Part shown: positions 18,833-60,646 of the stretch, in pieces | How the letters are laid out: every line of letters begins with the position of its first letter | How positions within the stretch are numbered: the stretch's first letter is position 1 | NCBI GenBank assembly: GCA_021793405.1 | Contig: JAJYSV010000020.1 | Span: 1 to 60,654, forward strand | Reading direction: 5' to 3' | DNA length: 60,654 bases | From: Acidobacteriota bacterium | GTDB taxonomy: Bacteria > Acidobacteriota > Terriglobia > Terriglobales > Acidobacteriaceae | Notes under the pieces: generated by a model | Told to the model about the DNA's origin: nothing | The model's database searches: none | What the model saw: the letters and a program-made list of their open reading frames with translations, nothing else | Translations under genes and position numbers: made by a program

Positions 18833-18836
18833 AGCT

Positions 18837-21749: not shown

Positions 21750-21903
21750 TCTCGCCCTTTTCCGTCTCCGGAGTAGGACTGCGCACCGCAGGATCCGCAG
21801 GGCCGGCGGTTGCTGGATTTTTACCGTCATAGCCTGAGGGCTGTACCGCGTGTTTCTGGTCTTCGCGGCGGTTCTCAACTTTTTCGTTTTCCTGGGTGGT
21901 CAT
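21700..21903 (-). CDS. Possible small hydrophilic protein
   Basis: 67 codons from an ATG with GAGG about 7 bases upstream. The product is highly polar, rich in Glu, Asp, Lys, Pro and Asn, and probably disordered. Its 3' 50 bases overlap the end of ligD on the other strand. I recognise no family. It is listed because the ribosome site and start are credible and the composition is unlike an antisense shadow, but it may not be expressed. Confidence 0.4.
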   Translation of the reverse strand: MTTQENEKVENRREDQKHAVQPSGYDGKNPATAGPADPAVRSPTPETEKGEINPSAPNDVNRTPDRK

Positions 21904-22018
21904 CCTAATCCTCGCTTGGGTGGCGCTTGCGCACTCATACGAAAGCCAGCCCTATGGGGTGGATGCTACCTGGGATTCACGGGTGGCTTGCGGCGGTCGA
22001 CATGAAGGCTGGATTCGA

Positions 22019-27775: not shown

Positions 27776-27837
27776 CAGCGATGATCGAGTAGTTTGTGGT
27801 TGAGGACCATGAGCTGCTGGATCAGGAGAAGCCTTCA

Positions 27838-28917
27838 ATGAAAATTATAGGATGTGATTTTCATCCGAGTTGGCAGCAGGTGGCGGTTTTCGATGCGGAG
27901 ACCGGTGAGATAGCCGAGCTGAAGCTGATGAACGGTGATGGAGAGGCAGAGCGGTTCTATCGGGGGCTGGAAGCGCCGGCGCTGATTGGGATGGAGGCGT
28001 GCGGGAACAGCCAGTGGTTGATCGAGTTGCTGGAACGGCTGGGCCATCTTGTTTGGGTAGGAGATGCGGCTCAGATTCGAGCCAGCTATGTGCGTCGGCA
28101 GAAGACCGACCGGCGCGATGCAGGCCACATACTTCGGTTGCTGATGGAAGATCGGTTTCCGCGATTATGGACGCCGACGGCCGAGCAGCGGGATCTTCGC
28201 CAGTTGCTGATTCATCGGCACAAGCTGGTGGAGATTCGCACGCGGGTGAAGAACGGGCTGCAGCATCTGGCGCTGAACCGTGGGGTGCAGAAGCAGAGTC
28301 GTCTGTGGAGCGTTCGGGGGAGGGCTTGTTTGGAAAAACTACCCCTGGAAGGCTGGACGGCGCGGCGGCGCGAAGACTTGCTGCAGTTGCTGGCGGAACT
28401 GGACCGGCAGATCGGCGAACTGGACAAAGCGGTGGGCGATGCGGCGGAGCAGCACGCGCAGGCGCGACTGCTGATGACGCAGCCGGGAGTGGGGCCGATT
28501 ACCTCGCTGGCCTTTGTGTTGACCATCGGGGATGTGAACCGGTTCAAGCACAGCGGTCAGGTGGCCAGTTATTTGGGGCTGATTCCACGCGAGCATAGCT
28601 CGGGCGGCAAGCAGCGGCTGGGCTCGATCAGCAAGCAGGGCAACCGGTTCCTGCGCCAGTTACTGGTCGAGGCAGCACAGACAGTAAACCGGTTGGATGA
28701 AGGATTTCGCAGGCAGTATCAGGCCCGCTGCCACCACAAGCCGAAAGGCGTGGCCAAGGTGGCTGCGGCCAGAAGATTAACTGTGCGACTCTACTGGATG
28801 CTCAGGCAGAACGTTGGCTATCCAGAGATCGTCCATATCGAGAGCAGCTCGCGGGTGCCCCTGACCGGCAGATGCCAGGTCGCGACGTTGAATGAGCGCT
28901 CTCGCATCCAGCAATAG
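27838..28917 (+). CDS. IS110-family DEDD transposase
   Basis: 359 residues. An N-terminal RuvC-like DEDD domain (D7 in GCDFH, E53 in GMEACG, D91 and D94 in KTDRRDA) and a C-terminal transposase-20 domain (LMTQPGVGPITSLAFVLTIG, then SGQVASYLGLIPREHSSGGK). The candidate serine nucleophile is S265 in SISKQGNRFLRQ. IS110 recombinases are now known to be guided by a bridge RNA made from the element's non-coding end. The frame is intact, so the element may be active. ATG 27838 follows a weak AGGAG; an in-frame start at 27796 would lie in the inverted repeat. Confidence 0.93.
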   Translation: MKIIGCDFHPSWQQVAVFDAETGEIAELKLMNGDGEAERFYRGLEAPALIGMEACGNSQWLIELLERLGHLVWVGDAAQIRASYVRRQKTDRRDAGHILRLLMEDRFPRLWTPTAEQRDLRQLLIHRHKLVEIRTRVKNGLQHLALNRGVQKQSRLWSVRGRACLEKLPLEGWTARRREDLLQLLAELDRQIGELDKAVGDAAEQHAQARLLMTQPGVGPITSLAFVLTIGDVNRFKHSGQVASYLGLIPREHSSGGKQRLGSISKQGNRFLRQLLVEAAQTVNRLDEGFRRQYQARCHHKPKGVAKVAAARRLTVRLYWMLRQNVGYPEIVHIESSSRVPLTGRCQVATLNERSRIQQ

Positions 28918-33184: not shown

Positions 33185-33210
33185 CCCAGGTCTCAGAAGC
33201 GAGACCTGGG
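33185..33210. repeat. Intergenic hairpin repeat, family 3, copy 2
   Basis: A perfect hairpin, CCCAGGTCTC / GAGACCTGGG around AGAAGC, followed by GGCACCCA. Same core as 27730-27759. Confidence 0.65.
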
Positions 33211-33345
33211 GCACCCACAGTTAGGTACACAACAAACGATCAGAGACCTAGCGAGTCGGAAATGCATTGCGGTCAACCTCAGCATTCGGTGTTGAACGAC
33301 AACCGCAGGTCCCTCCACTTTGGTCGGGATGACAATACCTTCAAT

Positions 33346-42557: not shown

Positions 42558-45023
42558 ATGGATTTGAGTCGTCCCATTGTCGTCGTGGGCTCCGGATATG
42601 TCGGCCTGGTAGCCGCGCTGTGTTTTGCGGAGATGGGATACCGCGTGCTGTGTGTCGACAGCGATCCGGTGAAAATGGCAGCGCTGCAGGCAGGTCGGGC
42701 GACGATTCACGAACAGTTTTTACCGGAATTGCTGGCCCGCCACGGGAACCGCAATGTGATCTTCACCACCGAGCTGGGAGCGGCAGCCCGGCAGGCCGAG
42801 CTTATTTTTATTGCTGTGGGCACGCCGCAGGCGCGGGGCGGCAAGGCGAACCTCTCTTACATTGAGTCCGCTGTGAGGGAAATCGCCAAGAATATCGACC
42901 ATTACACGGTCATCGTAGAAAAGAGCACGGTCCCGGTGTACACGAATGAGTGGATTGGGGACTTGATTGGGCGCTGCGGAGTTTCGCGCGATACATTCGA
43001 CGTGGTATCCAATCCGGAATTTCTGCGTGAAGGCAGCGCGGCGACGGATTTTCTCCATCCCGACCGGATCGTGATCGGATGCAACAATGATCGCTCGGCC
43101 TCACTGGTCGAAGAAGTGTACCGGCCGCTCACCACGGGCGCGTACTACGAGAAGCCCGACAGAATTCCCGGACAACGCTTTCCCGCCAAGCCGCCCGTGC
43201 TGTTGCGAACCTCTCCGCAAAGCGCGGAGTTGATCAAGCACGCGTCGAATGCGTTTCTGGCGATGAAGGTTTCCTTTATCAACGCGATTGCCAATCTTTG
43301 CGAAATTGTGGGCGCCAATATCACTGAGGTGGCCCCCGGCATCGGCATGGACCAGCGGATCGGGACGCAGTTTCTGCATCCTGGCATTGGCTATGGAGGT
43401 TCCTGTTTTCCCAAGGACCTGACCGCGTTTCGTTCGATGGCGACGGAGTATGGGATCGATTTCAGCCTTCTAGGGGCCATCGAACGGATCAATGAGTTGC
43501 AGCCGTTGCGATTTCTGGAGAAAGTGCGGGGAGCGTTAAGGGGAATCGAGGGCAAGCATTTCGCTGTGCTGGGATTGGCGTACAAAGGCGGGACCGACGA
43601 CGTGCGTGAATCACCCGCGATGCGCATGGTGCAGTTGATTCTGGCGGAGGGAGGCACGATCGCGGCCTACGATCCGGCAGCCATGGAACGAGCGCGGGAG
43701 GTGCAGCGGCCAAGCGCCACAATGCGCTACGTGACGAGCGAACTGGACGCGGCAAGAGACGCCGATGCGCTGCTGGTGCTGACCGACTGGCCGCAGTTTG
43801 TTTCGCTGGATCTGGAGGTTTTGTCGAGAACGCTGCGCGAGCCGCTCTTGATCGATGGCCGGAACCTGTTCTCACCCGAGGATGTTGTCCGGCAGGGATT
43901 GAGGTATCTGAGCATCGGACGTCCTGGAGCGGCGGCCACGGACGGCGAGGGGCAGGCAGAGCGGCCGGAACCAGCGCCAGCGGATGCCGGGATTGGGTTC
44001 GTGGAGCGAGGCGGCCGGAAGGAGGGCAAAGCAGCGCCGTATCTGGTTGCGGCTGCGCCGCGCCGGAAGAAGAAGATGCGCGTGCTGCTGACGGGCGCCG
44101 CCGGTTTTCTTGGCTCCCATCTGACGGATCGATTGCTGGCGGACGGCCATCATGTGGTGGGCGTCGATAATCTGTGTACCGGGCATTTTCACAATCTGGC
44201 GCATTTGAACAACGATCCGCGCTTTGAACTGATCGAGCACGACATCTGTGAGTTCTTCGATCCCGGCCCGGTCGATTACATCTTCAATTTCGCGTGTCCG
44301 GCCAGCCCGCCCCAGTACATGCGGCTTGGCATTGAGACACTGCGCGTCGGGTCGCAAGGGACGATCAACATCCTGGAGCTGGCGCACAAGTATGGGGCGA
44401 AAGTTCTACATGCGTCCACTTCCGAGTGCTACGGAACGCCGGAAATCCATCCGCAGCCGGAAACGTATTGGGGCCATGTGAATCCGGTGGGTCCGCGGTC
44501 GGTGTACGACGAGGCCAAGCGGTTCGGCGAGGCGGCGGTGATGGCATATCGCGCGCATTTCAATGTCGATGGGCGGCTGGTCCGGATCTTCAATACCTAT
44601 GGACCTCGCATGCATCCCGACGATGGGCGCGTGATTTCGAATTTCGCGATGCAGGCGCTGCGCGGAGAGGATGTGACTGTCTACGGAGATGGCTCGCACA
44701 CGCGCAGCTTCTGCTACGTGACCGACCTGATCGAAGGGATCATACGACTCTCACGCATTGAGGAAGCGCTGCCGGTGAATCTTGGCAATCCGGCGGAGAA
44801 CACGGTACTCGACTGCGCTCGACGCATCATCGCGCTGACGGGGTCGGCCAGCAGGATTCGGTTCGAATTGCTGCCGCAAGACGATCCTCCGCGCCGCCGC
44901 CCGGACATTACGAAAGCGCGGCAATTGCTGGGGTGGGAGCCGAATGTTTCGCTCGACCTGGGGTTGAGCGAGACGATCGATTACTTCCGGACGTTGCCGG
45001 CAAACATGATCGTTGCTGGATGA
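42558..45023 (+). CDS. Fused UDP-glucose 6-dehydrogenase / UDP-glucuronate decarboxylase
   Basis: 821 residues, two complete enzymes in one frame. Residues 1-430 are UDP-glucose dehydrogenase: [37 protein letters not shown], catalytic Cys283 in [10 protein letters not shown]. About 440-505 is a Pro/Ala/Gly/Arg linker ending RRKKK. From Met507 to the end is a UXS-type short-chain dehydrogenase: [24 protein letters not shown], catalytic Y650xxxK654 in SVYDEAKR, then [14 protein letters not shown]. The product would convert UDP-glucose via UDP-glucuronate to UDP-xylose. No stop separates the halves. Internal initiation at ATG 44076 (GGAAGAAG upstream) could also make free UXS. ATG 42558 is preferred over TTG 42519. 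Confidence 0.92.
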
Positions 45024-45083
45024 AGCATTTTTGCGGTTAGCCTGATTCGGGCATGGCTCTATGCCACCCTGGCTGCGCCTGAG
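45024..45083 (+). repeat. Dispersed 3' palindromic repeat, copy E (diverged)
   Basis: Starts at the base after the ugd-uxs stop: AGCATTTTTGCGGTTAGCCT, then GGGCATGGCTCTATGCCACC. It aligns with the left two-thirds of copy A. Same orientation as the upstream gene. Confidence 0.55.
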
Positions 45084-45172
45084 TCTGAAGTTCATTCAAC
45101 AATTCGATTCGTGGAAGTGATTCGAACAGCAGCGCTCAGGGGCTAAAGCCCATCTGTTTTGCGCCATTTACG

Positions 45173-45365
45173 GCCCGACTGAAGTCGTGCCCTGATACAA
45201 GACCGAGAATCATTCCGACTGAAGTCGTGCCCTGATATAAGACCGAGAATCATTCCGACTGAAGTCGTGCCCTGATACAAGACCGACAATCATTCCGACT
45301 GAAGTCGTGCTCTGATACAAGACCGAGAATCATTCCGACTGAAGCGTGCCCCGATACAAGGCCAA
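45173..45365 (+). repeat. 40-bp tandem repeat, about 4.8 copies
   Basis: Unit GAAGTCGTGCCCTGATACAA plus GACCGAGAATCATTCCGACT. Copies begin at 45181, 45221, 45261, 45301 and 45341, with a partial lead-in from 45173. Period is exactly 40; substitutions are few (TATAA, GACAA, GCTCT) and the last copy lacks one base. Contiguous, with no spacers. It lies in a 770-base gene-free interval (45024-45793) that also holds the hairpin CTCCTCAC...GTGGGGAG near 45402-45421 and otherwise nothing I can identify. Confidence 0.9.
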
Positions 45366-45793
45366 GCGAGCACAAGACATTTCAATCCGTTCATACAATT
45401 CTCCTCACTATCGTGGGGAGGGCTAATCGATTTGTCCCCACGGGATCGACGGTAGCGTCTCAGGCGATCGTGAGTCTGAGCAATAGGGGACAGATATGGC
45501 GGGTAGTTGAAATACGGAGACAACAAGGGTGGTGCAGTTCGCACCGTGAACAAGATGGGGCTTTCTCGAGGGCGGAAGCCGAATGTGGCCAATGTGAGCA
45601 AAATTGACCAGTTTCCTATTTTCGGTTCAAGCGATACTCTAGAGTATGTCGGGGAGCCGACACTGATGCCCAAAGGGCGTCTTGACTCCAGCCAATGAAA
45701 GTTTTGACTGAAGCGGAGGATTCCCTCCTGGACTCATTTTGAAGCGTCGACGAATTCGTGGCAGGCTCCAATGTTTCTGCGCGAGGAGGAGCC

Positions 45794-46570
45794 ATGGCAA
45801 TAGTTGAGTCCGAAAGCAGAGCCTTTGACGCAGCCGCATTTCTTGCGAGCGCGGGTCTGGGACGAAGAATTGTCCGGCTGAAGCCGGGGCAGGAATTCTT
45901 TGCCCAAGGCAGTCCCGCCGACTCCATTTTCTTTCTTCAAATTGGCAGCGCGAAGCTTTCCGTTGTGTCGGCCAACGGGAAGGAAGCCACGATTACGCTG
46001 CTTTCCGCTGGAGACTTTATTGGAGAAGAGGCGATTGCCGCCGTGGGTGGGCTGCGGCTGGCGGCGGCCAGGGCCATGACGGCCTGTACCGCGCTCAAAA
46101 TCGAGCGGGAGGAAATGATCCGCGTGATGCACGAGGAGCATACGTTCTCCGATCTGTTCGTGAAGTTTCTGCTGGCGCGGAGTATGCGAACCCAGGCCGA
46201 TCTCGTCGATCAGTTGTTCAATTCCAGCGAAAAGCGTCTGGCGAGAATTCTTCTGTTGATGGCGGAATTCGGCAAACCGGGTGAACCGCAAGTGCTGATT
46301 CCGCCGATCACGCAGGAAGCTCTGGCGGAGATGATCGGCACCACTCGATCCCGCGTCAGCTTCTTCATGAACCGATTTCGCAAGCTCGGGTTTATCGAGT
46401 ACAACGGCCGCATCCAGGTGCATAAGTCGTTGCTCAACGTGATTCTGCACGACGGCTTTTTCGAGCAGAATGCCGTCAGCGCTCCGCTGCTGACTCCGCC
46501 AGACGGTCGAGCGAAGCGGTCCCGAGGCAAAACCGCGAGGGTGGGCAAAATTGCACAGACCGCCGATTAG
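45794..46570 (+). CDS. Crp/Fnr-family transcriptional regulator
   Basis: 258 residues. Cyclic-nucleotide-binding-like domain at about 20-135 (IVRLKPGQEFFAQGSPADSI, LSAGDFIGEEAIAAVGG) and a C-terminal winged helix (about 160-225: ITQEALAEMIGTTRSRVSFF, then MNRFRKLGFIEYNG). No Fnr-type Cys cluster is seen, so it is not an obvious oxygen sensor; the ligand is unknown. The sequence after 235 is basic. ATG 45794 has AGGAGG five bases upstream and is clearly the start. Regulators ending in RFRKLGFIEYNG are frequent in Acidobacteriota, but targets are unknown. Confidence 0.9.
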   Translation: MAIVESESRAFDAAAFLASAGLGRRIVRLKPGQEFFAQGSPADSIFFLQIGSAKLSVVSANGKEATITLLSAGDFIGEEAIAAVGGLRLAAARAMTACTALKIEREEMIRVMHEEHTFSDLFVKFLLARSMRTQADLVDQLFNSSEKRLARILLLMAEFGKPGEPQVLIPPITQEALAEMIGTTRSRVSFFMNRFRKLGFIEYNGRIQVHKSLLNVILHDGFFEQNAVSAPLLTPPDGRAKRSRGKTARVGKIAQTAD

Positions 46571-46597
46571 GGCGGTGACATACTTCCACCAGGCCGC

Positions 46598-46765
46598 ATC
46601 TTGCTCACTGCCATCCTTACACAATCTGGGTATACAGTCCGGGCGGCGGAGGATGGCTTATCCGCTCTAACTGCGATTCGGCGCGAGGTTCCGGATCTGA
46701 TCCTCTCCGATCTCTACATGCCGGGGAAGTGTGCGAGTTCCTATGCGCGCGGAAACGCTGGATGA
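46598..46765 (+). pseudogene. Response-regulator receiver fragment
   Basis: The frame reads ILLTAILTQSGYTVRAAEDG, then LSALTAIRREVPDLILSDLY and MPG before drifting to a stop. This is the middle of a CheY-like receiver with the phospho-acceptor Asp in SDLYMPG. The N-terminal acidic pair is missing. After MPG a different frame continues with CEFL, resembling the usual GxEFL region, which implies a small indel. No start codon. It sits between the Crp/Fnr gene and an intact response regulator; the rest of 46571-46974 holds nothing else I can assign. Confidence 0.7.
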
Positions 46766-46974
46766 GCAGAATTGACCAGACTTGAAAATCCCCCTATGAA
46801 AGCCTTGAAGCTTAAGCGTGTTGGTGGGCGACGGCGAAGACGAGTCGTTCTGAAGAAACCGGCGGCGCTTTGGCTCGCACGCGATTCCTCGACCCTGTGG
46901 ATACTTTGTTTCACTGAGGATGGCGAGTATCGCAACCCGTAACGATGAACTTGTGAGGAGAGAAGGCGTAGCTT

Positions 46975-47865
46975 ATGGAAGGACTTGCGATGATGGCCGA
47001 CGAATCGAGTTCCGTTGCCGAACGGAACGGATTGCCGACCAGGCCGAAGGTTTTGCTGGTGGACGATACCGAAGCCGTGCGCGTGACCCTGCAGATGGTC
47101 CTGGAACATAACGACTTTGAAGTGGTCGCGGCCACCAATGTGAACGATGCCCTGCGCCTGATCGCTTCTCAGAGATTCGACGTGTTGCTGAGCGACCTGC
47201 ACATGCCCGGGGCAGGGGATGGGCTGACTGTGGTGAGCGCCATGCGCCACTCCCACCCCAGCGCGGTGACGGTGATCTTCAGCGGCTATCCCGAGATGAA
47301 GGAAGCCGCGGCGGCGATCCTGATGCAGGCGGATGAAATTCTGGTCAAGCCTTTGGATCCAAAGTCGCTGGTGGAAACAATCCGTGAGCGGTTGAAGCGA
47401 GGGGTGAAGTCAGTGCGATCTGTAGAAAACGTGGCGAATATCCTTGAACGGGAGACGCAAGCGACAATTGACGAATGGTTTTTGCGAGTCGAGTTGGAAC
47501 CGACAGTCATCTCTGTCCCATTGGACTACGAAGAGCGTAGCGGTCACCTGCCGCAGATGTTTCGCGATCTGGTGTCTCGACTTCGCTACCCGCTTCCATT
47601 GGGCACGCGCGCGCTGGTGTCTCCGTCTGCGGCCAAGCATGGATTGGCGCGACGGAGGCAAGGATACAGCGCCGCCATGATTGTGGAGGAGTCGCGCATG
47701 CTGCAGGTCAGCATCTTCCAGACACTGCAAAACAACCTGCACAAGGTGGACTTCAGCCTGCTGCTGGTGGATGTGATGGCGATTGCCGACGAGGTGGACT
47801 CGCAACTGGCGCAAACCATGGCGAGCTATGTGGCCGAATCGCAGATCGACGCGTTGCCGGTATAG
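46975..47865 (+). CDS. Response regulator with C-terminal RsbRD_N-like domain
   Basis: 296 residues. Receiver domain about 24-140: KVLLVDDTEAVRVTLQMVLE, phospho-acceptor Asp74 in LLSDLHMPGAGDG, IFSGYP and ILVKPLDPKSL. Residues about 150-290 resemble the RsbRD N-terminal / sensor domain (ERETQATIDEWFLRVELEP, QMFRDLVSRLRYPLP, RRRQGYSAAMIVEESRMLQV), which in stressosome-type proteins senses or relays signals. No DNA-binding domain, so the output is probably protein-protein. Start at ATG 46975, or 46990 which has GGAAGGA 6 bases upstream. Its kinase is not in the window. Confidence 0.82.
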   Translation: MEGLAMMADESSSVAERNGLPTRPKVLLVDDTEAVRVTLQMVLEHNDFEVVAATNVNDALRLIASQRFDVLLSDLHMPGAGDGLTVVSAMRHSHPSAVTVIFSGYPEMKEAAAAILMQADEILVKPLDPKSLVETIRERLKRGVKSVRSVENVANILERETQATIDEWFLRVELEPTVISVPLDYEERSGHLPQMFRDLVSRLRYPLPLGTRALVSPSAAKHGLARRRQGYSAAMIVEESRMLQVSIFQTLQNNLHKVDFSLLLVDVMAIADEVDSQLAQTMASYVAESQIDALPV

Positions 47866-47867
47866 AA

Positions 47868-47960
47868 CATTTTCACTGTCACTGTGACGCGGGCATCGCT
47901 CTATCCCACCCTATCTTCGCTAGGATGGGGCATCCAGAGGTTACGCTATCAGTGAAAATG
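47868..47960 (+). repeat. Dispersed 3' palindromic repeat, copy A (full length)
   Basis: 93 bases bounded by a perfect 11-bp inverted repeat, CATTTTCACTG and CAGTGAAAATG. The core is GGGCATCGCTCTATCCCACC followed by CTATCTTCGCTAGGATGGGG, a nearly self-complementary hairpin. It begins 2 bases after the stop codon of the response-regulator gene. Confidence 0.8.
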
Positions 47961-48026
47961 CTCGAGGCATGAGTCGGCGGGCATTCATTCCAATATGGCC
48001 TGAATACAGCGCGCGGATCGACCGAT

Positions 48027-49571
48027 TCAGGATTTCGTCGCCGCGGGCGCGTTGCGGCGCACCCGCAGATTGTCGATGGCGTAGTCGATGTACCGCGGCT
48101 CAAAATGCGGCGTTTGCCCCATGAACCGGCAGGTCGCCATCACCTGATCGACGATGAATTTCGGCTGGTATGCGGCGAGATCCAGTCCCCGTTCCTTTCC
48201 GACCCTGGCCACGATAAAGTTAAATATTTTGTCGGTAAGCGGCAAGCCCTGGCGTTCACACTCCCTCTCGAATATTTGCCGGTAAAGTTCGGGAGTGGGC
48301 GCTCCAACCTCGATTTTGTAGGGAAGGCGGCGCAGGAATGCGGGATCCATCAGGTCTTCGGGCTCCATGTTCGTGGAGAAGATAACCAGTTCCTCGAATG
48401 GGATGGTGAAGGTCTTGCCCGTGTGCAGCTTCAGGTAGTCCCGCCGGCTCTCCAGCGGCACGATCCACCGGTTGAGCAGGTTGGCCGGGCTTACCAACTG
48501 GCGGCCGAAATCATCGATGACGAAACATCCGCCCAATGCCTTCATATGCAGAGGCGCCTCGTAGCACTTTGCTATGGCGTCATATCTCAGGTCGAGCATC
48601 TCCAGCGTCAGTTCGCCGCCGGTAACGACAAAGGGCCGCCGGCAGGGGACCCAGCGGGCGTCGCTTTCCTCGCTGCGGATGAAGGAGAGGGTTTCCTCCT
48701 GCATCGGAGCGGCGGAACGCGGCAGGTTGTGAACGCTCGGGTCGTGGACGCGGATGATCTGACCGTCGACCATCACCGCGTAGGGAACGTAGATGACGTC
48801 GTGAAACACGTTGGCGAAACTGAGCGCCACCGAGGTTTTGCCGTTGCCGGGCGGACCGTAAAGAAGCATGGCGCGGCCGGAGTTCAATGCCGGTCCGCTT
48901 TGTTCGATCATGCTGTCGGAGAAGCTCAGGCTGCCGAAGGACTTCCGGATGCGCTCGAAGGTGACCAGCTCATTGGTCACCTTCTGAAGGTTCACCTGAT
49001 TGGAGAATTCCTCAATGGTGACGGGAGCGGGCCCGACATATCGCGACTGCTCGAGGGCGTCCGCCGCATAGCGCCGGCCTTGGTCGGTGAACGCGTAGCT
49101 CATGTCGACCAGGCTCTCGGACTGGCGCGTTCCCAGGGCGCGGAGCAGTTGACGGTCGATGGCCATCTGCACCAGGTCGAGCACAATGTGATATGGCAGC
49201 TTGATGGCGTCGACGAACTGACCGATGGACTCCAGGTGGCCGGAGTAGATGAGCTTCATCAACAGGTCCAGCAGATCGGTCTCGCCGATTTTGGTGGCCG
49301 CCACATTCGCGGGCTCTGCAGGCATGCGATGAAGGAAGGCATCCAGCGCCTTTTGCCCGATCGCGCCGATCGCGACCAGATGGTCGCCCAGGCGACCGCC
49401 GCGGTCAGCTTGAATTTCGAGTGCCTTTGTGACCTGCGCAACTGTGACCAGCTTGGCCTGAATCAGCAGGTCACCTAATCGGATTCGTGCTTCGATGGCT
49501 TCCCTCCTGGGCGGCAGCGCGATCGCTCCGGGATCTAGCAGGTTGATCTTAAACCTGGTACACACTCGCAT
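48027..49571 (-). CDS. AAA+ ATPase with N-terminal MshEN-like domain
   Basis: 514 residues. About 30-82 look like the MshEN/GspE N-terminal module (RLGDLLIQAKLVTVAQVTKA, RLGDHLVAIGAIGQKALDAF), a fold that in other proteins binds c-di-GMP or nucleotide. About 90-180 is helical. An AAA+ module follows: Walker A LLYGPPGNGKTS (237-248), Walker B GGCFVIDDFG (347-356), sensor-like VIFSTNMEP and the arginine-rich FLRRLPYKI. It ends with a helical lid. It is not a pilus motor, as Asp/His boxes are absent. Probably a regulatory or remodelling ATPase; partner unknown. ATG 49571 lacks a strong ribosome site. Confidence 0.8.
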   Translation of the reverse strand: MRVCTRFKINLLDPGAIALPPRREAIEARIRLGDLLIQAKLVTVAQVTKALEIQADRGGRLGDHLVAIGAIGQKALDAFLHRMPAEPANVAATKIGETDLLDLLMKLIYSGHLESIGQFVDAIKLPYHIVLDLVQMAIDRQLLRALGTRQSESLVDMSYAFTDQGRRYAADALEQSRYVGPAPVTIEEFSNQVNLQKVTNELVTFERIRKSFGSLSFSDSMIEQSGPALNSGRAMLLYGPPGNGKTSVALSFANVFHDVIYVPYAVMVDGQIIRVHDPSVHNLPRSAAPMQEETLSFIRSEESDARWVPCRRPFVVTGGELTLEMLDLRYDAIAKCYEAPLHMKALGGCFVIDDFGRQLVSPANLLNRWIVPLESRRDYLKLHTGKTFTIPFEELVIFSTNMEPEDLMDPAFLRRLPYKIEVGAPTPELYRQIFERECERQGLPLTDKIFNFIVARVGKERGLDLAAYQPKFIVDQVMATCRFMGQTPHFEPRYIDYAIDNLRVRRNAPAATKS

Positions 49572-49741
49572 TCACCACGAAAATGTGTGGTGCTCCGCAG
49601 GCTCGACCCAATACGGCGCGGAGGAGCTATTTGTGTCAATCCATCCGGACGACGCGCGATTTGCGAGGAACGAAACGCGCCTTGCCCGCCGATATGGCGA
49701 CACCGGATTTCGCCGCCTGGTATTTCGCGATGCATTCCAGC

Positions 49742-51745
49742 CTACCACTTGCGCAGCGTGCGTGTCAGTTTCGGATACCACGTGATTTGAATGTTCGTCG
49801 TCACGTCGGACTGGCCGCCGGGCTTGTAGACGGGAGCATTCCAGCGTTCGTACTGGAGCCACGCGTTCAACTCGACTTGAGGCTTGAGGCGCTTGACGAC
49901 GGTGACGGTGAAGTCGTTTTGGGTGGTGCCGCCTTCGACCCTGGGGCCGCCAGTGGCAAATGTGTTGCCGGGGATGAAATCCTTGGCAGCCTTGGCGTTT
50001 CTGTAGGACAGCTGCACCATCTCGCTGGGGGAAAGATGGTAGGTGAGCCAAGCCTGGCCACCTTTGGCTTCACGCCCGATCCAGTCGCCGAAGATGTTTC
50101 CCTTGTTGGTGTAGCCCTGCCGCTGAATCACCTCGATGTACATGAAGCTGCCGTTATAGCTATTCGAGACAGGGACGTCAGAGTAGACGCCCTCCGCGCG
50201 CAGGTCGAACTTGGGTGCTCCTGGGATGCGCGCCAGATAGAGACCGGAGCGGATGGCGGCGCGGCGCGGCGCGCTGACGGGGGTGACATCGTCGTGCGAT
50301 TCCGCGTCGGTGTAGAGCGTCAGTAATTTACTGGCGTAAGGCAGGCGCAAGGTAAAGTCAAAGGTGCTGAAGCGGGCGCCGGGGTCGTTGCGGGAGTATT
50401 TGGTCGCTACAGAAACATTCTGGAAACTGGTGAAGCTGTTCCAGAAGCTGCCCAACGTGATGGGGACATGGCCCTTGCCGCCCCAGATGACGGTGCGCGA
50501 AAAGCCAAACTCGAAGCTGGGGGTGGGGTTGAAGGCGAACTTTTCCATGTGGACCCAGGGATCGTTGGGATCGGTGTGGCCTTTCAGGCTGCCGACCAGA
50601 AATTCGTATCGGACCGGCCCAAGCACGTAGGAGAGGAACGGAATGTGCAACGGCTCGACGCGGTTGATGCGGAAGGAATAGATATCTTCCGCGTTGTTGC
50701 TCCAGTCGAACGCTCCGCCGGTTGCGGGGCCATCCCATACATCGCTTTTTCCAAACGAGATGTCATGGTTGAGGACGGTGGCGGAGAGGTTCGCTTCGAT
50801 GAGCCGAAAATAATTCTGGGTGGCGATGGGTCCGGCGGGAATGGTGTCCTGGGGAACGTCGGGAACCAAGTCGAGATTAGCCAGGGTCTGGGCAAGAGCG
50901 GGGGAGTAGCCGGCGGCGCTGGGCGCGTGCTGATATTCGCCGCGGACATAGAGCGCAAACGGACCCGAGGTCGCGCGGGCGCTGAAACCGGAGTAGTTGT
51001 TGAATCCCTGTTCATAGGGGCGGCCATAGTTGTTGATGATGGTTTGGCCGAGATGGAAGCTGTCGTTCAGGGGCGTTCCGCCGATGGGCATGGCGCGCTC
51101 ATAGAGCGACTCCAGGGTGGCGTTGGTTGTCCAATAGCTTGTCGCCGGCACATCGGATTCCAGTTCCGCCAGGACCGCGTCGTATATCTCCAGCGCTTGT
51201 TCGTTATTGCGCTCCGAGTGAATTCTCTCCTGCTCGGCATACAACATGCGCAGCACGCTCATCCGGGTCCAGGGGCGCATATCGACGAATGCGCTGTCCA
51301 GGTAGCCGAGGGAATAGAGTCGCAAGAGCGCGTTATAGATCCAGCTGTCGACAGGAATGTAGGTCGAGCCAAGATTGGAGGCCAGTTCCGACGCGGGCAC
51401 AACCCGGTACGGAGGGAAGGCTTCGTCCATGGAATAGGAGCCGTTGGATGGAACTGGAGGGGTATAGGAGTTTGGCGAAGCGGCGTTGGGCTTGGCCGGT
51501 GGCGGCTGACGATAGGCGGGCATACTCTGGTCCTGCTGTGGACCGAGCGCTACCGGAGAATCCATGGGCTGCCAGGACAGGTTGGCTAAGAACGCCGAGG
51601 CCGGGCTAAAGGCTATCTGTCGCGGTGCCGGGTTCGAGATTTGCTCCTGGGCTTCCGCCTGCCGGGGTTGCAGCGCGGTGAATCCAATGGCTACTCCTGT
51701 ACAGAGCAATCCTGCCAAAACTTTCTGAATGCTACGATTCTTCAC
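49742..51745 (-). CDS. Capsule-assembly Wzi-like outer-membrane protein
   Basis: About 667 residues from GTG 51745 (VKNRSIQKVLAGLLCTGVAI), chosen because GATGAGG lies 5 bases upstream and a signal peptide starts there (cleavage near QAEAQ). A Pro/Gln-rich stretch at about 45-100 precedes the Capsule_assembly_Wzi-type region: VPVDSWIYNALLRLYSLGYL-like spacing, then alternating beta strands (LGQTIINNYGRPYEQGFNNY, FALYVRGEYQHAP, DISFGKSDVWDGP) and the terminal aromatic residue W. This pattern fits an 18-strand barrel. Wzi helps attach capsular polysaccharide to the surface, so it may serve the polymer made by the locus at 35.5-45 kb. Confidence 0.8.
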   Translation of the reverse strand: MKNRSIQKVLAGLLCTGVAIGFTALQPRQAEAQEQISNPAPRQIAFSPASAFLANLSWQPMDSPVALGPQQDQSMPAYRQPPPAKPNAASPNSYTPPVPSNGSYSMDEAFPPYRVVPASELASNLGSTYIPVDSWIYNALLRLYSLGYLDSAFVDMRPWTRMSVLRMLYAEQERIHSERNNEQALEIYDAVLAELESDVPATSYWTTNATLESLYERAMPIGGTPLNDSFHLGQTIINNYGRPYEQGFNNYSGFSARATSGPFALYVRGEYQHAPSAAGYSPALAQTLANLDLVPDVPQDTIPAGPIATQNYFRLIEANLSATVLNHDISFGKSDVWDGPATGGAFDWSNNAEDIYSFRINRVEPLHIPFLSYVLGPVRYEFLVGSLKGHTDPNDPWVHMEKFAFNPTPSFEFGFSRTVIWGGKGHVPITLGSFWNSFTSFQNVSVATKYSRNDPGARFSTFDFTLRLPYASKLLTLYTDAESHDDVTPVSAPRRAAIRSGLYLARIPGAPKFDLRAEGVYSDVPVSNSYNGSFMYIEVIQRQGYTNKGNIFGDWIGREAKGGQAWLTYHLSPSEMVQLSYRNAKAAKDFIPGNTFATGGPRVEGGTTQNDFTVTVVKRLKPQVELNAWLQYERWNAPVYKPGGQSDVTTNIQITWYPKLTRTLRKW

Positions 51746-52305
51746 TCGCACCTCATCGAACGATTTTTGGGCTCCCGCCCGGTGAAATGTCCCGTCGGCC
51801 GGAGTCTGCCAAAGGTTGAACGCACACTTCAGAGTAAGATGACTTTCGCGCTGCATGCGTTGATTTTTGGCATCATCGTTCTTTCGCCAATGTATCAACT
51901 ATTTCCCATCGATGTCAGGGAGTACGGGTCGGCAGAGGACGGAGCGGCGGTCGGGATCTGTCTACGCGAATGCCGGGGAGCGGGTCTGGCCGCTCGCGGA
52001 GGCTTGTTCGGGGGCGTTCGCGGCCCATGAGGGGAGGGCGCATAACCTGGCGAAATAGTCTCGATAGAAAATTTAAATTCGACCTTTTCCTTGTGTCCGG
52101 TCGAAGTAGACATTAGACTTTTCCATTAGCCCTCTGAATTTCCTTGCTTCGCTTGACGCAACATTCGAATGCGACTGGCTACAGCCGTTCTGTTCGATTC
52201 TGTGGAGATTTTTGGCTTTCGTTTCGCGAAGCGGCCATGTTTTTCACCAACTTTTCGCGAGTCAGGTTACGTGACGCCATTCTTGAAAGACGGTGGTACA
52301 TAAGT
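51746..52305. other. Divergent intergenic region wzi-like / amt
   Basis: 560 bases. Upstream extensions of both neighbours read through parts of it, but without ribosome sites or domain similarity. I see no sigma-54 promoter (no TGGCAC-N5-TTGC) before amt, which would have been expected for nitrogen control in Proteobacteria, and no structured RNA. Confidence 0.4.
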
Positions 52306-53748
52306 ATGCGATGGATTTTGGCGCGCACTTTCTTTGTGTTTGCGCTGGTTGCGGGATGTGGGACAAGCGCGTGGGCGGTGGTCGCCGCAAGTACGGGCAG
52401 CGGCGTGCAGCCGACGCCGCAGGAGATGCAGCAACATCTGCTGCAACTGGACCAGGCGGTGCGCAATGCGCAGCTTTCCGCGGACAACGCCTGGATGCTG
52501 GTGTGCGCGGCGCTGGTATTGCTGATGACGATTCCCGGGCTGGCGCTGTTCTATGGCGGGCTGGTGCGCAAAAAGAACGTCCTGAGCACGATGATGCACA
52601 GCTTTGCGATGACGGGCATCATTACAGTGGTATGGGCCGTGGTCGGCTTCAGCTTGTGTTTCAGTTCGGGAACGAGTTTTATCGGCGGACTGGATCATGC
52701 GTTTTTGCGGGGGGTCGGGTCGGCGCCCGACCCCGCCTATGCGGCCACGATTCCGCTGGCCACGTTTATGATCTACCAGCTGATGTTTGCCATCATTACG
52801 CCGGCGCTGATCTCCGGGGCATTTGCGGAGCGGATGAAGTTCAGCGCAATGGCGCTGTTCACCTTGCTGTGGTCCTTGTTTGTGTACGCGCCCATGGCGC
52901 ACATGGTATGGGGCAAAGACGGACTGCTGAATGCGTCGCTGGCGGGAGGCGTCCGCACGTTGGATTTTGCCGGTGGCACGGTGGTCCACATTACCTCCGG
53001 AGTGTCGGCGCTGGTGTGCGCGATCTATCTGGGGAAGCGGTTGCACTATCCCAAGGAGCGCATGCCGCCGCATAGCGTGGTACTGAGCTTCATCGGCGCG
53101 GGGTTGCTGTGGGTGGGCTGGTTTGGATTCAATGCGGGCAGCGCGTTGTCAGCGGGCACGCTGGCCACCAGCGCCTTTGTGGCCACTCAATTTGGCGCGG
53201 CGGCGGCGGGCCTGGGCTGGTGCCTGGCGGAATGGCTGCGCAATGGCAAGCCCAGCGCTCTGGGAGCGATTTCGGGCGCGGTGGCGGGGCTGGTCGCCAT
53301 TACTCCGGCGGCAGGGTTTGTCGGGCCCATGTCGGCGCTCGCTATCGGGTTCCTGGCCGGACTGTTCTGCTATTTCATGGTTGCCAAGGTGAAGCAATGG
53401 TTTGGCTATGACGATTCGCTGGATGCCTTTGGCGTGCATGGAGCGGGCGGCACTCTAGGCGCGATTCTGACCGGAGTGTTCGCTTCGCGGGCCATCAATC
53501 CTATCTTTCAGGATGGGCGGGGCCATGCGCTGCCGGTAGGCTGGATGGACGGCAACTGGATGCAGGTGCCGCATCAACTGCTGGGAGTGGCGATTGCATG
53601 GACGATTTCCATAGTAGGCACGCTGGTGTTGCTGAAGGTGGTGGATATGCTGGTGGGGCTGCGCGTCAGTTCCGCAGAGGAGCACGAAGGACTGGACCTG
53701 AGCCAGCATGGTGAAGAGGGCTACGATTGGGAAATTGCAGCTTCCTAA
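52306..53748 (+). CDS. amt: Ammonium transporter (Amt family)
   Basis: 480 residues with a signal-like N-terminus (MRWILARTFFVFALVAGCGT). The core has 11 helices: MLVCAALVLLMTIPGLALFY followed by GGLVRKKN, DFAGGTVVHITSGVSALVCA and FGVHGAGGTLGAILTGVFA, all Amt signatures. It imports ammonium, and PII can block the pore. The genes for GlnK (82 bases on) and GlnD follow, so it is the first gene of a nitrogen operon. ATG 52306 is chosen since the signal peptide starts there; an ATG at 52237 is in frame. Confidence 0.94.
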   Translation: MRWILARTFFVFALVAGCGTSAWAVVAASTGSGVQPTPQEMQQHLLQLDQAVRNAQLSADNAWMLVCAALVLLMTIPGLALFYGGLVRKKNVLSTMMHSFAMTGIITVVWAVVGFSLCFSSGTSFIGGLDHAFLRGVGSAPDPAYAATIPLATFMIYQLMFAIITPALISGAFAERMKFSAMALFTLLWSLFVYAPMAHMVWGKDGLLNASLAGGVRTLDFAGGTVVHITSGVSALVCAIYLGKRLHYPKERMPPHSVVLSFIGAGLLWVGWFGFNAGSALSAGTLATSAFVATQFGAAAAGLGWCLAEWLRNGKPSALGAISGAVAGLVAITPAAGFVGPMSALAIGFLAGLFCYFMVAKVKQWFGYDDSLDAFGVHGAGGTLGAILTGVFASRAINPIFQDGRGHALPVGWMDGNWMQVPHQLLGVAIAWTISIVGTLVLLKVVDMLVGLRVSSAEEHEGLDLSQHGEEGYDWEIAAS

Positions 53749-53830
53749 TCTTGCTCTGGTATCTTGGCGTTGAGCGAAGACGGACTGGAAGGCAGACGTT
53801 CTTTGTTCCAGGAAGACGAGGAAGCGAGAT

Positions 53831-54169
53831 ATGCAGAAGATTGAAGCAGTGATTCAGCCATCGAAGCTGGACGCGGTCAAGGACGCGCTGATTGAAATCG
53901 GGGTGGAGGGCATCACGATTCTTGAGGCGCGCGGCCATGGGCGTCAGAAGGGCCATACCGAGTTTTACCGCGGCCGGGAATATGCGGTGGACGTTCTGCC
54001 GAAGATCAAACTGGAGATAGTGGTTGCCGATGCGATGGCGGAACGCGCCGTGCAGGCAATCCTGACCGCCGCGCGCACAGGCAAGATCGGAGATGGCAAG
54101 ATCTTTCTTTCGCGGGTGGAGGACGCCATTCGCATTCGCAACGATGAACGTGGAGAGTCCGCCTTGTAG
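53831..54169 (+). CDS. glnK: Nitrogen regulatory PII protein (GlnK/GlnB)
   Basis: 112 residues, full PII length. Start MQKIEAVIQPSKLDAVKDAL; T-loop with uridylylation Tyr51 in GREYAVDVLPK; B- and C-loops TGKIGDGKIFL and RIRNDERGESAL. It senses 2-oxoglutarate and ATP/ADP and regulates Amt. With amt upstream and glnD downstream, GlnK is the natural name. The retained Tyr51 fits modification by the adjacent GlnD. Confidence 0.95.
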   Translation: MQKIEAVIQPSKLDAVKDALIEIGVEGITILEARGHGRQKGHTEFYRGREYAVDVLPKIKLEIVVADAMAERAVQAILTAARTGKIGDGKIFLSRVEDAIRIRNDERGESAL

Positions 54170-54216
54170 ACTGTATTGGTAAGGAGCCTTTCATCCCGAT
54201 ACACGGTTCATCCTCG

Positions 54217-56868
54217 ATGACGGCACTGCGTCTGGAGTACCAACGCAACTCTGACCAGATGCGGGAATCCTTTGCGGAATCGCAGAATGGCTCCGCGCTG
54301 GTGCAGCGCCGGGCTGAACTGGTGGACGACCTGATCGAGCGCCTGTGGCTGGAGCACGTTGCCGCCGAGGAGTATGGACCGCAGGGATTGACCCTGGCAG
54401 CCATTGGCGGATATGGAAGATGCCAGCTGTTTCCCTACTCGGACATCGATCTGCTGTTCATCGCGAACGACGCGGGGGTGGAGGGACGCTACAAGGTTGC
54501 GATACGGCGACTTTGTCAGGACCTGTGGGACATTGGCTTACGGGTGAGCGCCACCACGCGCGCGGTGGAAGAGTGCGAACGGATCAGCGAAGAAAATCCT
54601 GAATTTACACTGTCGCTGCTCGACAGACGCTATATCGCGGGAGATTTCGCGCTGTTCGAGGATCTGGATCTGGAGCGGATTCCGTCGCTGATCGAGCGCC
54701 GGCGTTCCCAATTGCTGGCCGCGATTGCGCGTCTGGCGCATGCCCGCCAGGCAAAATTTCAACGAACGCTGTTTCATCTGGAACCCAACGTGAAAGATGG
54801 CGTGGGCGGATTGCGCGATTTTCACATCTGCACATGGTTGGGTCAGGTGTTGCCAGAGAGCGCGCGGCATTCGTCGAATCGTTATGAAAACGAACTGCTG
54901 GTCGAGCGCCAGGATGATTCCGCTCTGGCGCATCAATTTCTGATCACGGTTCGCACCTTTCTGCATTACCGAAGCCAGCGCGATGACAACATGCTCTACT
55001 GGCAGGCGCAGGACGAGGCAGCGGCGCGGCGACTGGGACTTTCGATCATGCAGTCCAAGCTGGCAGAAAAGCGTCCCCCGGATACGGCGGGCTGGATGCG
55101 GCAATATTTTCGTCACGCGCGGTCGATCGATTGGCTCACCCGCCAAATGCTGGACGAAATTCCGAGCGGCCGCCTTTCCTTGATCGATCACGTTCGCCAA
55201 TGGCGCAGCCGGACCGTAGTGGACGGGTGCCCGGTGTCCGACGGCAGAATCTCACTGAAGACGGCCGCGGAATATGCCGATCCCGATCGCATGCTGACTC
55301 TGTTTCAGATGCTGGCGGAGCAGCGGCTGCAACTGAGCCGGGAAGCGGAAGGGCATTTGAGCGAATCGCTGGCGGTGCTGGCGGAGCGACTGCCTGCCGG
55401 GGCCACGCTTTGGGAAAGAGTACGTCGGATCCTTCTCGGGCCGGAAGTTGCCAATGCGCTGCGCGCCATGCATGCGCTGGGGATTCTCGAGCTGATTCTT
55501 CCGGAGTTCCATGGGGTCGACGCGCTGGTGGTTCGGGATGCCTATCACCGCTATACGGTGGATGAGCACACGTTTTTGATTCTTGAAAATCTGCATTCCT
55601 TGGCGCAGCCGGCCTACGAGTGGGAAGAGCGTTTTTACGCGATCCTGCAGGAGGTGGAAGAGCCCGAACTGCTGTATCTTGCCGCGCTGTTGCACGACAC
55701 CGGCAAAGCGCGCGGGGAAGGCAACCATACTCTCCATAGCATGGGGATTGCCGCCGCGGTCTGCGAGCGCTGGCATCTGACGGCGAACCAGCGTGAAACG
55801 GTGTTGCGCCTGATCCGGCAGCACCTGGAAATGTCTCTGACGCTGCGGAAGGACATTTTCGATGCGGAAACGGTGCGGACTTTCGCGGAGATGGTAGGCA
55901 CGCCCAACAACCTGCGGCTGCTGACGCTGTTGACGTATGCCGATGTCCGGTCGGTCAATCCGGAGGCGCTTACACCGTGGAAGGCGGAGAATTTGTGGCG
56001 GCTCTACATGGCGACATCGAATTATCTGGACCGCAATGTGGATGAGGACCGCATCGAGGCGGATGCCGACACGGTGGCGATTCAGGAAGTGATTGCGCTG
56101 TCTCCGAACGATGCGGCGGAAATTCATCTCTTCCTGGCCGGTCTGCCGCAACGATATTTGCGCACGCGGTCGGCGCAAGAGATCCTGACGCACTGGCAAC
56201 TTGCTCGTCAGCTGGAAGCATCGTCGTCGGAAGTTCTGCTGACGCATGCCGGGGCATCGTGGGAATGTACGCTGATTACGCGCGACCGTCCGTTCCTGTT
56301 TGCCGATATGGCGGGTGCGTTGACGGCGTGGGGGATGGATATCATCAAGGCGGACGCGTTCTCGAATGCGGCTGGGATCGTAATCGACAGCTTCCGCTTT
56401 CTCGACCGCTATGACACCCTGGCCCTGAATCCAGCCGAGACGACGCGGTTCCAGAAGAGCCTGACCGATGTTGCCAGTGGAGCCGTAGCGGTGGCGCGAT
56501 TGCTGGCGTCCCGGGCGCATTCGGCGCGCGTCCAGAACAACAAGATGCAGGTGGAAACACGGCTGTCCGTCGACAATACCTCTTCGACTCACAGCACGAT
56601 CCTGCAGGTGATTACGCAGGACACGCCCGGACTGCTGCGGCGCCTGAGCCTGGTGTTGGCGGAGATGCAATGCAATATTTCCGTGGCGCTGATCGATACC
56701 GAGGGCGAAGTTGCGATCGACGTCTTCTACCTGACGAAAAACGCGCATGGGCAGGGAATCGGTTCCTCCGGTGCCGAGGCGGAAAATGCGAAGCTCGATC
56801 CCGAGTTTCTGGAGCGTTTGCAGCAGGCGCTGACGGAGACGTTGCAGACGACGGGCGTACCACACTGA
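54217..56868 (+). CDS. glnD: [Protein-PII] uridylyltransferase / uridylyl-removing enzyme
   Basis: 883 residues, usual length. Nucleotidyltransferase domain with GGYGRCQLFPYSDIDLLF (metal Asp76 and Asp78); the central PII-uridylyltransferase domain with VKDGVGGLRDFH; the HD hydrolase domain with AALLHDTGKARG; and two C-terminal ACT domains (TLITRDRPFLFADMAGAL; LQVITQDTPGLLRRLSLVLA) that sense glutamine. It adds UMP to PII when glutamine is low and removes it when high. It begins 47 bases after glnK in the same direction. All catalytic motifs are present. Confidence 0.95.
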   Translation: MTALRLEYQRNSDQMRESFAESQNGSALVQRRAELVDDLIERLWLEHVAAEEYGPQGLTLAAIGGYGRCQLFPYSDIDLLFIANDAGVEGRYKVAIRRLCQDLWDIGLRVSATTRAVEECERISEENPEFTLSLLDRRYIAGDFALFEDLDLERIPSLIERRRSQLLAAIARLAHARQAKFQRTLFHLEPNVKDGVGGLRDFHICTWLGQVLPESARHSSNRYENELLVERQDDSALAHQFLITVRTFLHYRSQRDDNMLYWQAQDEAAARRLGLSIMQSKLAEKRPPDTAGWMRQYFRHARSIDWLTRQMLDEIPSGRLSLIDHVRQWRSRTVVDGCPVSDGRISLKTAAEYADPDRMLTLFQMLAEQRLQLSREAEGHLSESLAVLAERLPAGATLWERVRRILLGPEVANALRAMHALGILELILPEFHGVDALVVRDAYHRYTVDEHTFLILENLHSLAQPAYEWEERFYAILQEVEEPELLYLAALLHDTGKARGEGNHTLHSMGIAAAVCERWHLTANQRETVLRLIRQHLEMSLTLRKDIFDAETVRTFAEMVGTPNNLRLLTLLTYADVRSVNPEALTPWKAENLWRLYMATSNYLDRNVDEDRIEADADTVAIQEVIALSPNDAAEIHLFLAGLPQRYLRTRSAQEILTHWQLARQLEASSSEVLLTHAGASWECTLITRDRPFLFADMAGALTAWGMDIIKADAFSNAAGIVIDSFRFLDRYDTLALNPAETTRFQKSLTDVASGAVAVARLLASRAHSARVQNNKMQVETRLSVDNTSSTHSTILQVITQDTPGLLRRLSLVLAEMQCNISVALIDTEGEVAIDVFYLTKNAHGQGIGSSGAEAENAKLDPEFLERLQQALTETLQTTGVPH

Positions 56869-56896
56869 GGCGACCCGTGCCAGTGGGAGAACTTGG

Positions 56897-56998
56897 GCCT
56901 TTTCTCGGTTACTGTGATGTGGGCATCGTTCTATCCCCACCCTAACTGCGCTAGGATGGGCGCCCATAACATCCCACCATCTGTGAAATGCTCTAAGT
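56897..56998 (+). repeat. Dispersed 3' palindromic repeat, copy B
   Basis: TTTCTCGGTTACTGTGATGT, then GGGCATCGTTCTATCCCCAC and a CTAGGATGGGC core, ending CTGTGAAATGCTCTA. It starts about 30 bases after the glnD stop in the same orientation. The rest of 56869-57212 shows no gene. Confidence 0.7.
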
Positions 56999-57212
56999 TG
57001 GCCTTTTTCTCGCAGACACCCACCGGATTCCGCCCGTGCGCACCCCGGAGGTACACTGATGAGGTTGTTAGCGGCTGAGGTTCCCCTTGCATATTCGCGG
57101 GTGAGCTTTGCGAGCGCTCGCATGGTTCGACAGAATGCATCCTGAACCGGAGAGTTCGGCGTCGCGAACGATTCAATCCCTGGAGCAAGACGCGATCTCG
57201 CCGGGGGATGGA

Positions 57213-60227: not shown

Positions 60228-60272
60228 GGTATTTTCACTGTTCCTGTGATGCGTTCTCTCCCACCTAGCTGT
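60228..60272 (+). repeat. Dispersed 3' palindromic repeat, copy C (partial)
   Basis: TATTTTCACTGTTCCTGTGATGC, then TTCTCTCCCACCTAGCT: the left end and part of the core of copy A. It lies 76 bases after the pfkB-like stop, in the same orientation. The remaining gene-free stretch to 60484 shows nothing else I can identify. Confidence 0.55.
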
Positions 60273-60530: not shown

Positions 60531-60646
60531 TGCCGGCGATCACCTAATCTCCCACACTCAAAAATGCAGTACCATCGGCCCAGCGAGACTTTACTTCCGT
60601 GTTCGGGATGGGAACGGGTGTTGCCCTCGCAGTATAGTCACCGGCA
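60531..60646 (-). rRNA. rrf: 5S ribosomal RNA
   Basis: 116 nt. The ends pair (TGCCGG at the 5' side with CCGGCA at the 3' side). The interior shows the conserved CCCGTTCCCATCCCGAACAC, GAAGTAAAGTCTCG and GGTACTGC... GGGAGATTAGG blocks. As the last gene of a minus-strand operon, 23S and 16S should lie to the right, outside the window. Confidence 0.95.

Follow-up and report, generated by a model that had tools for sequence, protein, structure and literature searches.

Palindromic repeats in the window

The window, i.e., the whole stretch of 60,654 nucleotides that was analysed, contained two full and three partial copies of a single palindromic repeat, here called the element. Its consensus was approximately 103 bp long, which is too short for a transposase gene, and ran from TA and RAGCATTTTCAC through a left arm, a hairpin and a right arm to GTGAAAATGCTY and TA, with terminal repeats of 14 bp. 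The core hairpin was CCCACCCTAGC-TTC-GCTAGGATGGG, followed by the tail GCACCC. The best full copy lay on the plus strand at 47863–47965. The first-pass annotation had placed it at 47868–47960, with 11-bp terminal repeats and an inner hairpin; the hairpin was recovered, but the true extent was greater and the ends measured 14 bp in the consensus. The left terminal repeat was at 47863–47876, and the copy had been thought to follow a stop codon, whereas its own TAG (47863–47865) is the stop codon of the gene at 46975–47865. The right terminal repeat was at 47952–47965 on the minus strand, with TA changed to GA, while the inner REP-like hairpin and its GCACCC-type tail (CCCACCCTATCTTCGCTAGGATGGGGCATCC) occupied 47905–47935 on the plus strand and matched the core pattern with 2 mismatches. 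The second full copy (56893–56995, plus strand) was found 24 bases past the stop codon of the gene at 54217–56868.

These copies were delimited with a sequence-only profile, built from 12 copies of the element in this genome. All five places named in the first-pass annotation matched it, the matches at 47863–47964 (E = 3.7e-28) and 56895–56994 (E = 6.7e-24) being true by construction, as both copies went into the profile and the other three did not. On the minus strand, a partial copy at 119–175 covered profile positions 1–57 only (E = 1.2e-10). The partial copy at 45023–45082 on the plus strand comprised the first ~60 positions (match 45024–45082, positions 4–62, E = 1.9e-7); it began at the TGA stop codon of the gene at 42558–45023 and ran into a second repeat family. 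A weak partial copy was present at 60229–60270 on the plus strand (profile positions 5–54, E = 5.3e-5). The gene at 42558–45023 was a single reading frame fusing UDP-glucose/GDP-mannose dehydrogenase with NAD-dependent epimerase. Elsewhere in the window, adjacent Ku and LigD genes formed a non-homologous end-joining pair (17927–21749), and an IS110-family transposase gene was located at 27796–28917.

Across the genome (4.6 Mb, 137 contigs), 42 distinct places matched the profile at E < 0.005, counted after opposite-strand matches had been merged; two of these, both on C63, may represent a single copy in two halves. The end motif TARAGCATTTTCAC produced 30 genome matches at up to one mismatch, against none for a reversed control pattern; some of the 30 were the two ends of one copy and a few looked unrelated. 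Each of the 10 genomes searched within the genus (uncultured Acidobacteriota, this genome included) contained matches to the element, as did 28 of 100 genomes at E ≤ 0.001; in other genera, the core was the main part covered among the matches listed. Scanning named genomes for an exact pattern brought up two assemblies of uncultured Acidobacteria. All survey genomes were at draft level unless called complete, and gene calls were approximate, having been made with a purpose-written script. The possibility that the core was an abundant free motif was rejected, given that its 10 matches in this genome were all profile places also; four family genomes had 0–10 matches to the core pattern. Some copies had a second hairpin within the loop of the core hairpin (L205:9925–10039; L133 at ~19760; L194 at ~19945; L135 at ~9834; L210 at ~3822–3947), and in L204 the core was replaced by another REP stem. 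A subfamily B combined the same IS630-type ends with a different palindromic core (L122:5334–5449; also L139, L140, L141 and L142). It provided five usable copies for orientation, of which two had enough skew and one agreed.

The element is an IS630-type MITE. Its end motif TARAGCATTTTCAC was found exactly in the right ends of IS copies at four contig ends of this genome, while IS630 left ends were looser (TAGAGCA, then divergent). Related genomes contained IS copies of approximately 1.0 kb (G006:C195, G008:C383, G006:C25) in which the right end was like that of the element and the left end was looser, and two proteins of such IS elements, from same-genus genomes, exceeded the NCBI cut-off for IS630, making them a DDE-type autonomous partner. 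Because IS630 copies are interrupted by breaks in the draft assembly (contig ends C26, C28, C48, C76, C13 and C120), the genome itself yielded no intact IS with these ends. The sole DDE_3 gene found there, on C136, was rejected as a partner since its ends differ. The arms of the element resembled IS ends by eye and the core, as far as seen, was not derived from an IS.

Insertion at TA and within stop codons

The element was mostly flanked by Y-TA-R. Of 10 comparisons with candidate empty sites, two resolved a clean TA to the exact base, which the other eight did not. The first compared L213 in G009 with L229, a different contig from that assembly; the aligned parts measured 49 and 133 bases, with 98% identity, the empty site was TTTGT[TA]G, and a TAG stop codon had become TAA. 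The second concerned L231 in G005 and L198 in G007, where the empty site was CGAC[TA]GCGG (78% and 97%). Its anatomy and these two empty sites showed that the element inserts at TA, mostly YTAR, and that each side of it is then bordered by TA. At 47863, the left side read TATAG and the right side was without TA.

Both ends of the element begin with TAR; therefore, whichever way round the element lands in the TA of a TAA or TAG stop codon, a stop remains. Of 60 full copies that were clear of contig ends, 28 had a terminal TAR serving as stop codon for an adjacent gene, to within 1–2 bases (11 at the element's 5' end and 17 at its 3' end), and the fit was base-exact in 23 of 58 full copies with two called neighbours. 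Noncoding YTAR sites lay in stop codons at a rate of 0.14–0.19, such that the element showed an approximately threefold excess (p = 1e-8); some element sites were common to several genomes, and pooled p-values are overstated for this reason. Among convergent gene pairs alone, a terminal stop was found in 10/19 cases, against an expectation of 0.31 (p = 0.08), and much of the stop codon excess is therefore accounted for by the target sequence together with intolerance of insertion elsewhere. No full copy (0/60) lay inside a called gene. Placement exclusively after stop codons, as first proposed, proved to be a tendency but not a rule: of 100 copies with two called neighbours, six lay between divergent genes, compared with 29% of intergenic DNA.

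The copy at 47863 supplied the stop codon of the gene at 46975–47865, whose orthologues in the seven relatives examined all ended two codons later; hence, the insertion cost the gene its final two codons. In 20/24 stop-overlapping copies (9/10 at the 5' end, 11/14 at the 3' end), the flank was the Y or R that a former TAR stop would have left, a test that is weak because the copy at 47863 passes it despite the gene having been shortened by two codons. Among IS630 copies, one end contained the stop codon of a neighbouring gene in 5/17.

Orientation relative to genes and to GC skew

Within the window, all five copies followed a stop codon and pointed with the preceding gene, as the first-pass annotation had reported. 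However, the general rule drawn from this held in the window only. Orientation was analysed for 118 copies at E < 1e-4 from four genomes (this genome, G005, G007 and G009), and in 110 of these a gene ended towards the element; relative to the nearest such gene, 57 pointed the same way and 53 the opposite way, and the remaining eight copies had no such gene. Gene-linked orientation was rejected on this ratio. Random orientation relative to genes was the outcome that had been named in advance as contrary to the initial reading, and the argument from gene orientation for a 3'-linked target fails with it; what survives of that target is the TA, mostly YTAR, that TAA and TAG stop codons supply.

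Orientation tracked GC skew instead. The strand of the element matched the sign of regional skew in 100/118 copies, and in 87/93 where the absolute skew was at least 0.03. When skew was calculated within 2 kb, agreement was 107/118, with 95/98 at ≥ 0.03 and 83/83 at ≥ 0.05; within 8 kb, at ≥ 0.03, it was 30/30 in this genome, 24/24 in G007, 18/19 in G009 and 19/20 in G005. One of the two copies that disagreed within 8 kb was L213, which provided the cleanest empty site. Where gene strand and regional skew were in conflict, the element followed skew in 35/38 cases. Agreement with third-position skew was 78/84 using plus-strand genes only and 80/84 using minus-strand genes only, and with the skew of noncoding DNA it was 66/75. 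Within the window itself, skew stayed around zero or below for the first ~20 kb and was positive after that; the minus-strand copy at 119–175 lay in the first part (local skew -0.011, too weak to count), and the four plus-strand copies lay in the second. On contig C126, a minus copy occurred in local skew of -0.074 and a plus copy in +0.077. The strand switch in the window, which need not be an origin, fell at ~20000–22500, where skew rose from about zero or below to strongly positive; dnaA was absent among the 10 proteins scanned near this switch.

Replication direction was read from skew plus a few marker genes. Recognisable ribosomal-protein, tuf and rpoC genes lay on the G-rich strand, which supports the G-rich strand being leading; this identity rests on few marker genes because coding DNA overall showed no bias to the G-rich strand (0.45–0.54). 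The 5S rRNA at 60531–60645 was on the minus strand, which is not the G-rich strand here. The orientation of the element is fixed relative to the DNA strand rather than to the gene, the direction probably being that in which the chromosome is copied. In complete relatives, where the strand of the hairpins was read, a simple two-replichore picture was not clear-cut. G041 had 20 plus and 2 minus hairpins below 1.53 Mb, 12 minus and 2 plus at 4.6–5.2 Mb, and a mixture between; G056 had 12 plus and no minus hairpins at 3.2–3.9 Mb, with more than two strand switches round the chromosome; and G026 had no such hairpins. These strand blocks could reflect inversions, or a cause other than replication.

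The orientation bias was present early, and its growth with age was not clear. Copies whose nearest paralogue was at least 0.88 identical agreed with skew in 7/8 cases; those at 0.80–0.88 agreed in 25/25 by third-position skew and 19/25 by total skew, and those at 0.70–0.80 in 20/24. Ordered by identity to the consensus, at an absolute skew of at least 0.03, agreement was 29/30, 29/32 and 29/31 from the best to the most decayed copies. Copies with the core but without the ends agreed in 8/10. Conservation of the core over the ends was seen in decayed copies, and it is not claimed here because detection favours the core.

Other repeats were examined for the same polarity. IS630 copies of several types (19 copies, 12 informative) agreed with skew within 2 kb in 7 cases and were opposed in 5; at 1, 5 and 8 kb the ratios were 8:6, 6:8 and 5:9. 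Inheritance of polarity from IS630 transposition was therefore unsupported, in a small sample whose outcome depended on the span over which skew was taken. In an all-against-all test of intergenic repeats, in which the larger class was scored as concordant, the long palindrome GAGTCATTCTGAGCG was unpolar (6/11, 5/10, 9/18), while the GTCTC hairpin (11/11, 15/15, 6/6) and the second repeat (11/11, 6/6) were polar. A further intergenic repeat scored 12/15, four small families 3/4, 3/5, 1/2 and 2/3, and clusters dominated by the element, with other repeats mixed in, 25/32, 24/25, 17/19 and 22/28.

In the regions analysed, hairpins ending in TGGGGCACCC outside the element were polar in 24/24 cases (31 found), exact TGGGGCACCC tails inside the element in 48/49 (58 found), and TGGGGCACCC without a detected hairpin in 15/17 (20 found), compared with 227/431 for shuffled decamers. 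The GTCTC family was polar in 17/17 cases under a strict pattern (21 found); its stand-alone copy in the window, CCCAGGTCTC..GAGACCTGGGGCACCC with the tail GGGGCACCC, lay at 33185–33216 on the plus strand, in the same sense as the element. The second polar repeat, GGGGCTAAAGCCC..GGCACGACTGAAGTCGTGCC, occupied 45125–45335 on the plus strand, including extra tandem units. Using the unit at 45125–45215, 28 were found, three being tandem units in the window, and polarity, seen in four genomes, was 25/25 within 8 kb and 23/24 within 2 kb. Y1 transposase genes adjoined the GTCTC hairpin (at L160) as well as the second repeat (at L158); the L158 protein passed the NCBI cut-off for REP-associated transposases and the L160 protein fell below it (72 versus 80 bits). 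The element had no match at the six Y1 loci, and no Y1 gene was found beside its own hairpin. Thus, stop codon landing tracks the IS630 frame and polarity the REP-like module.

Origin of the polarity and relation to known systems

The favoured reading, which we consider fairly likely, is that the element is a non-coding MITE with IS630/Tc1-mariner ends and a REP-like hairpin, that it lands in TA and stop codons, and that its skew-linked polarity comes from the REP module by way of a Y1 transposase. IS630-type transposition would set the insertion site at TA, mostly YTAR; insertions in stop codons would be nearly harmless and persist, while those in coding or promoter DNA would be lost. Whatever the gene, the strand reading CCCA-stem-TGGGGCACCC correlated with the locally G-rich strand, taken as leading. 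The plus strand of the hairpin would then match the lagging-strand template in sequence, and it is on this template that Y1 transposases of the IS200/IS605 group act (PMC5371812, PMC6006769). Polarity would then belong to the REP module, rather than to IS630 transposition, with a REP-associated Y1 transposase acting strand-specifically on the lagging-strand template, either through insertion there or through removal of wrongly oriented copies. More tentatively, and with somewhat less confidence than would make it probable, REP-type hairpins in this Acidobacteriota genus may enter or survive in one fork-relative orientation only, a rule that would override the otherwise random orientation in which a cut-and-paste IS630 MITE, having captured a hairpin, would lie.

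Alternatively, a Y1 transposase might mobilise the entire element, and not just its core, in single-stranded form, in which case the IS630-like ends would mark a site beside YTA. Near-complete polarity is as in IS200/IS605 elements, 23 copies stopped at the hairpin tail (profile end 73–76), and the empty site fits duplication of TA and insertion beside TA alike; yet both ends are inverted repeats common to DDE-type IS630 elements, and stand-alone REP hairpins avoid stop codons, none of 21 GTCTC hairpins overlapping a called one, so that this appears quite unlikely. A polar host DNA signal, comparable to KOPS or Chi, with selection against wrong-way copies, would account for the polarity of several unrelated hairpin families. 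It is nonetheless unlikely, as nothing convincing linked the core to the genome's skewed octamers, the element being without an outstanding one; moreover, the bias was already present in close paralogues (7/8 at ≥ 0.88), and two unrelated sequences were polar.

Wrong-way hairpins might instead be lost through replication errors, since in that orientation the more stable strand would lie in the lagging-strand template. The plus strand folded less stably in 40/59 copies with DNA parameters and 44/59 with RNA parameters, which is the expected sign, but the mean DNA difference between strands was 1.4 kcal/mol, small for a bias of ~97%, and the long palindromic repeat was unpolar; we regard this explanation as very unlikely. 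A 3' UTR RNA element, acting as terminator or mRNA stabiliser and kept in sense orientation, had been suggested in the first-pass annotation. Its placement behind genes is as such a role would predict, as is the strong folding seen in three (z = -3.9, -6.6 and -9.1) of the four copies tested, the fourth giving z = -2.2. However, orientation relative to genes was random, and sites resembling intrinsic terminators (a GC hairpin with a T run) numbered zero in 44900–57100, where shuffled sequences averaged 11.0. The element was accordingly rejected as a terminator, nothing found requires a role at the RNA level, and the RNA explanation as a whole is highly improbable.

RUP, NEMIS/Correia, ERIC and others are MITEs of IS630/Tc1-mariner type. 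These MITE names are listed in PMC3733652. The element resembles bacterial IS630/Tc1-mariner MITEs in being short, non-coding and gene-adjacent, with inverted terminal repeats and a TA target; unlike them, it has a REP-like hairpin, stop-forming ends (28/60) and an orientation set by GC skew. For ISY100, of the IS630 family, nearly all insertions occur at TA, which is duplicated, according to PMC2170065, and a title within that paper's reference list gives the preference of IS630 as CTAG. Landing in stop codons would be a way for a MITE to sit flush against genes with little harm.

As for REPs with RAYT, the element shares with these an intergenic imperfect hairpin, many copies, a constant tail and a position mostly behind genes, and hairpins related to its own adjoin Y1 genes. 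According to Di Nocera et al., REPs lie mainly downstream of genes and the termini of GTAG REPs often provide a TAG stop codon (PMC3733652). The tag of the element is GCACCC/GGGTGC, as opposed to the GTAG or CGTC of described REP superfamilies; the core is therefore called REP-like and kept out of those classes. Its hairpin further differs in lying inside IS630 ends, in having no Y1 gene of its own among the six Y1 loci, and in pointing one way relative to GC skew. Within the open-access literature, which mostly excludes subscription papers, no report was found of REP strand polarity or of an IS630 MITE enclosing a REP; the nearest hint, in PMC3116915, is that REP tandem arrays of P. fluorescens SBW25 are oppositely oriented on the two halves of the chromosome.

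If REP-type hairpins do enter or survive in one fork-relative orientation only, they would be a fossil record of replication direction, and the action of Y1 (RAYT) transposases on the lagging-strand template could be read from genomes. Gomez et al. (2014) reportedly described insertion sequences with replication-linked orientation. The orientation of IS608, ISDra2 and Tn7 (via TnsE) follows replication direction, as stated in PMC5371812. These are whole mobile elements, whereas in the present case polarity is found in a non-coding MITE and is lacking in its IS630 relatives; near-complete polarity beside unpolar IS630 relatives makes Y1 action on single-stranded DNA at the fork testable from closed genomes.
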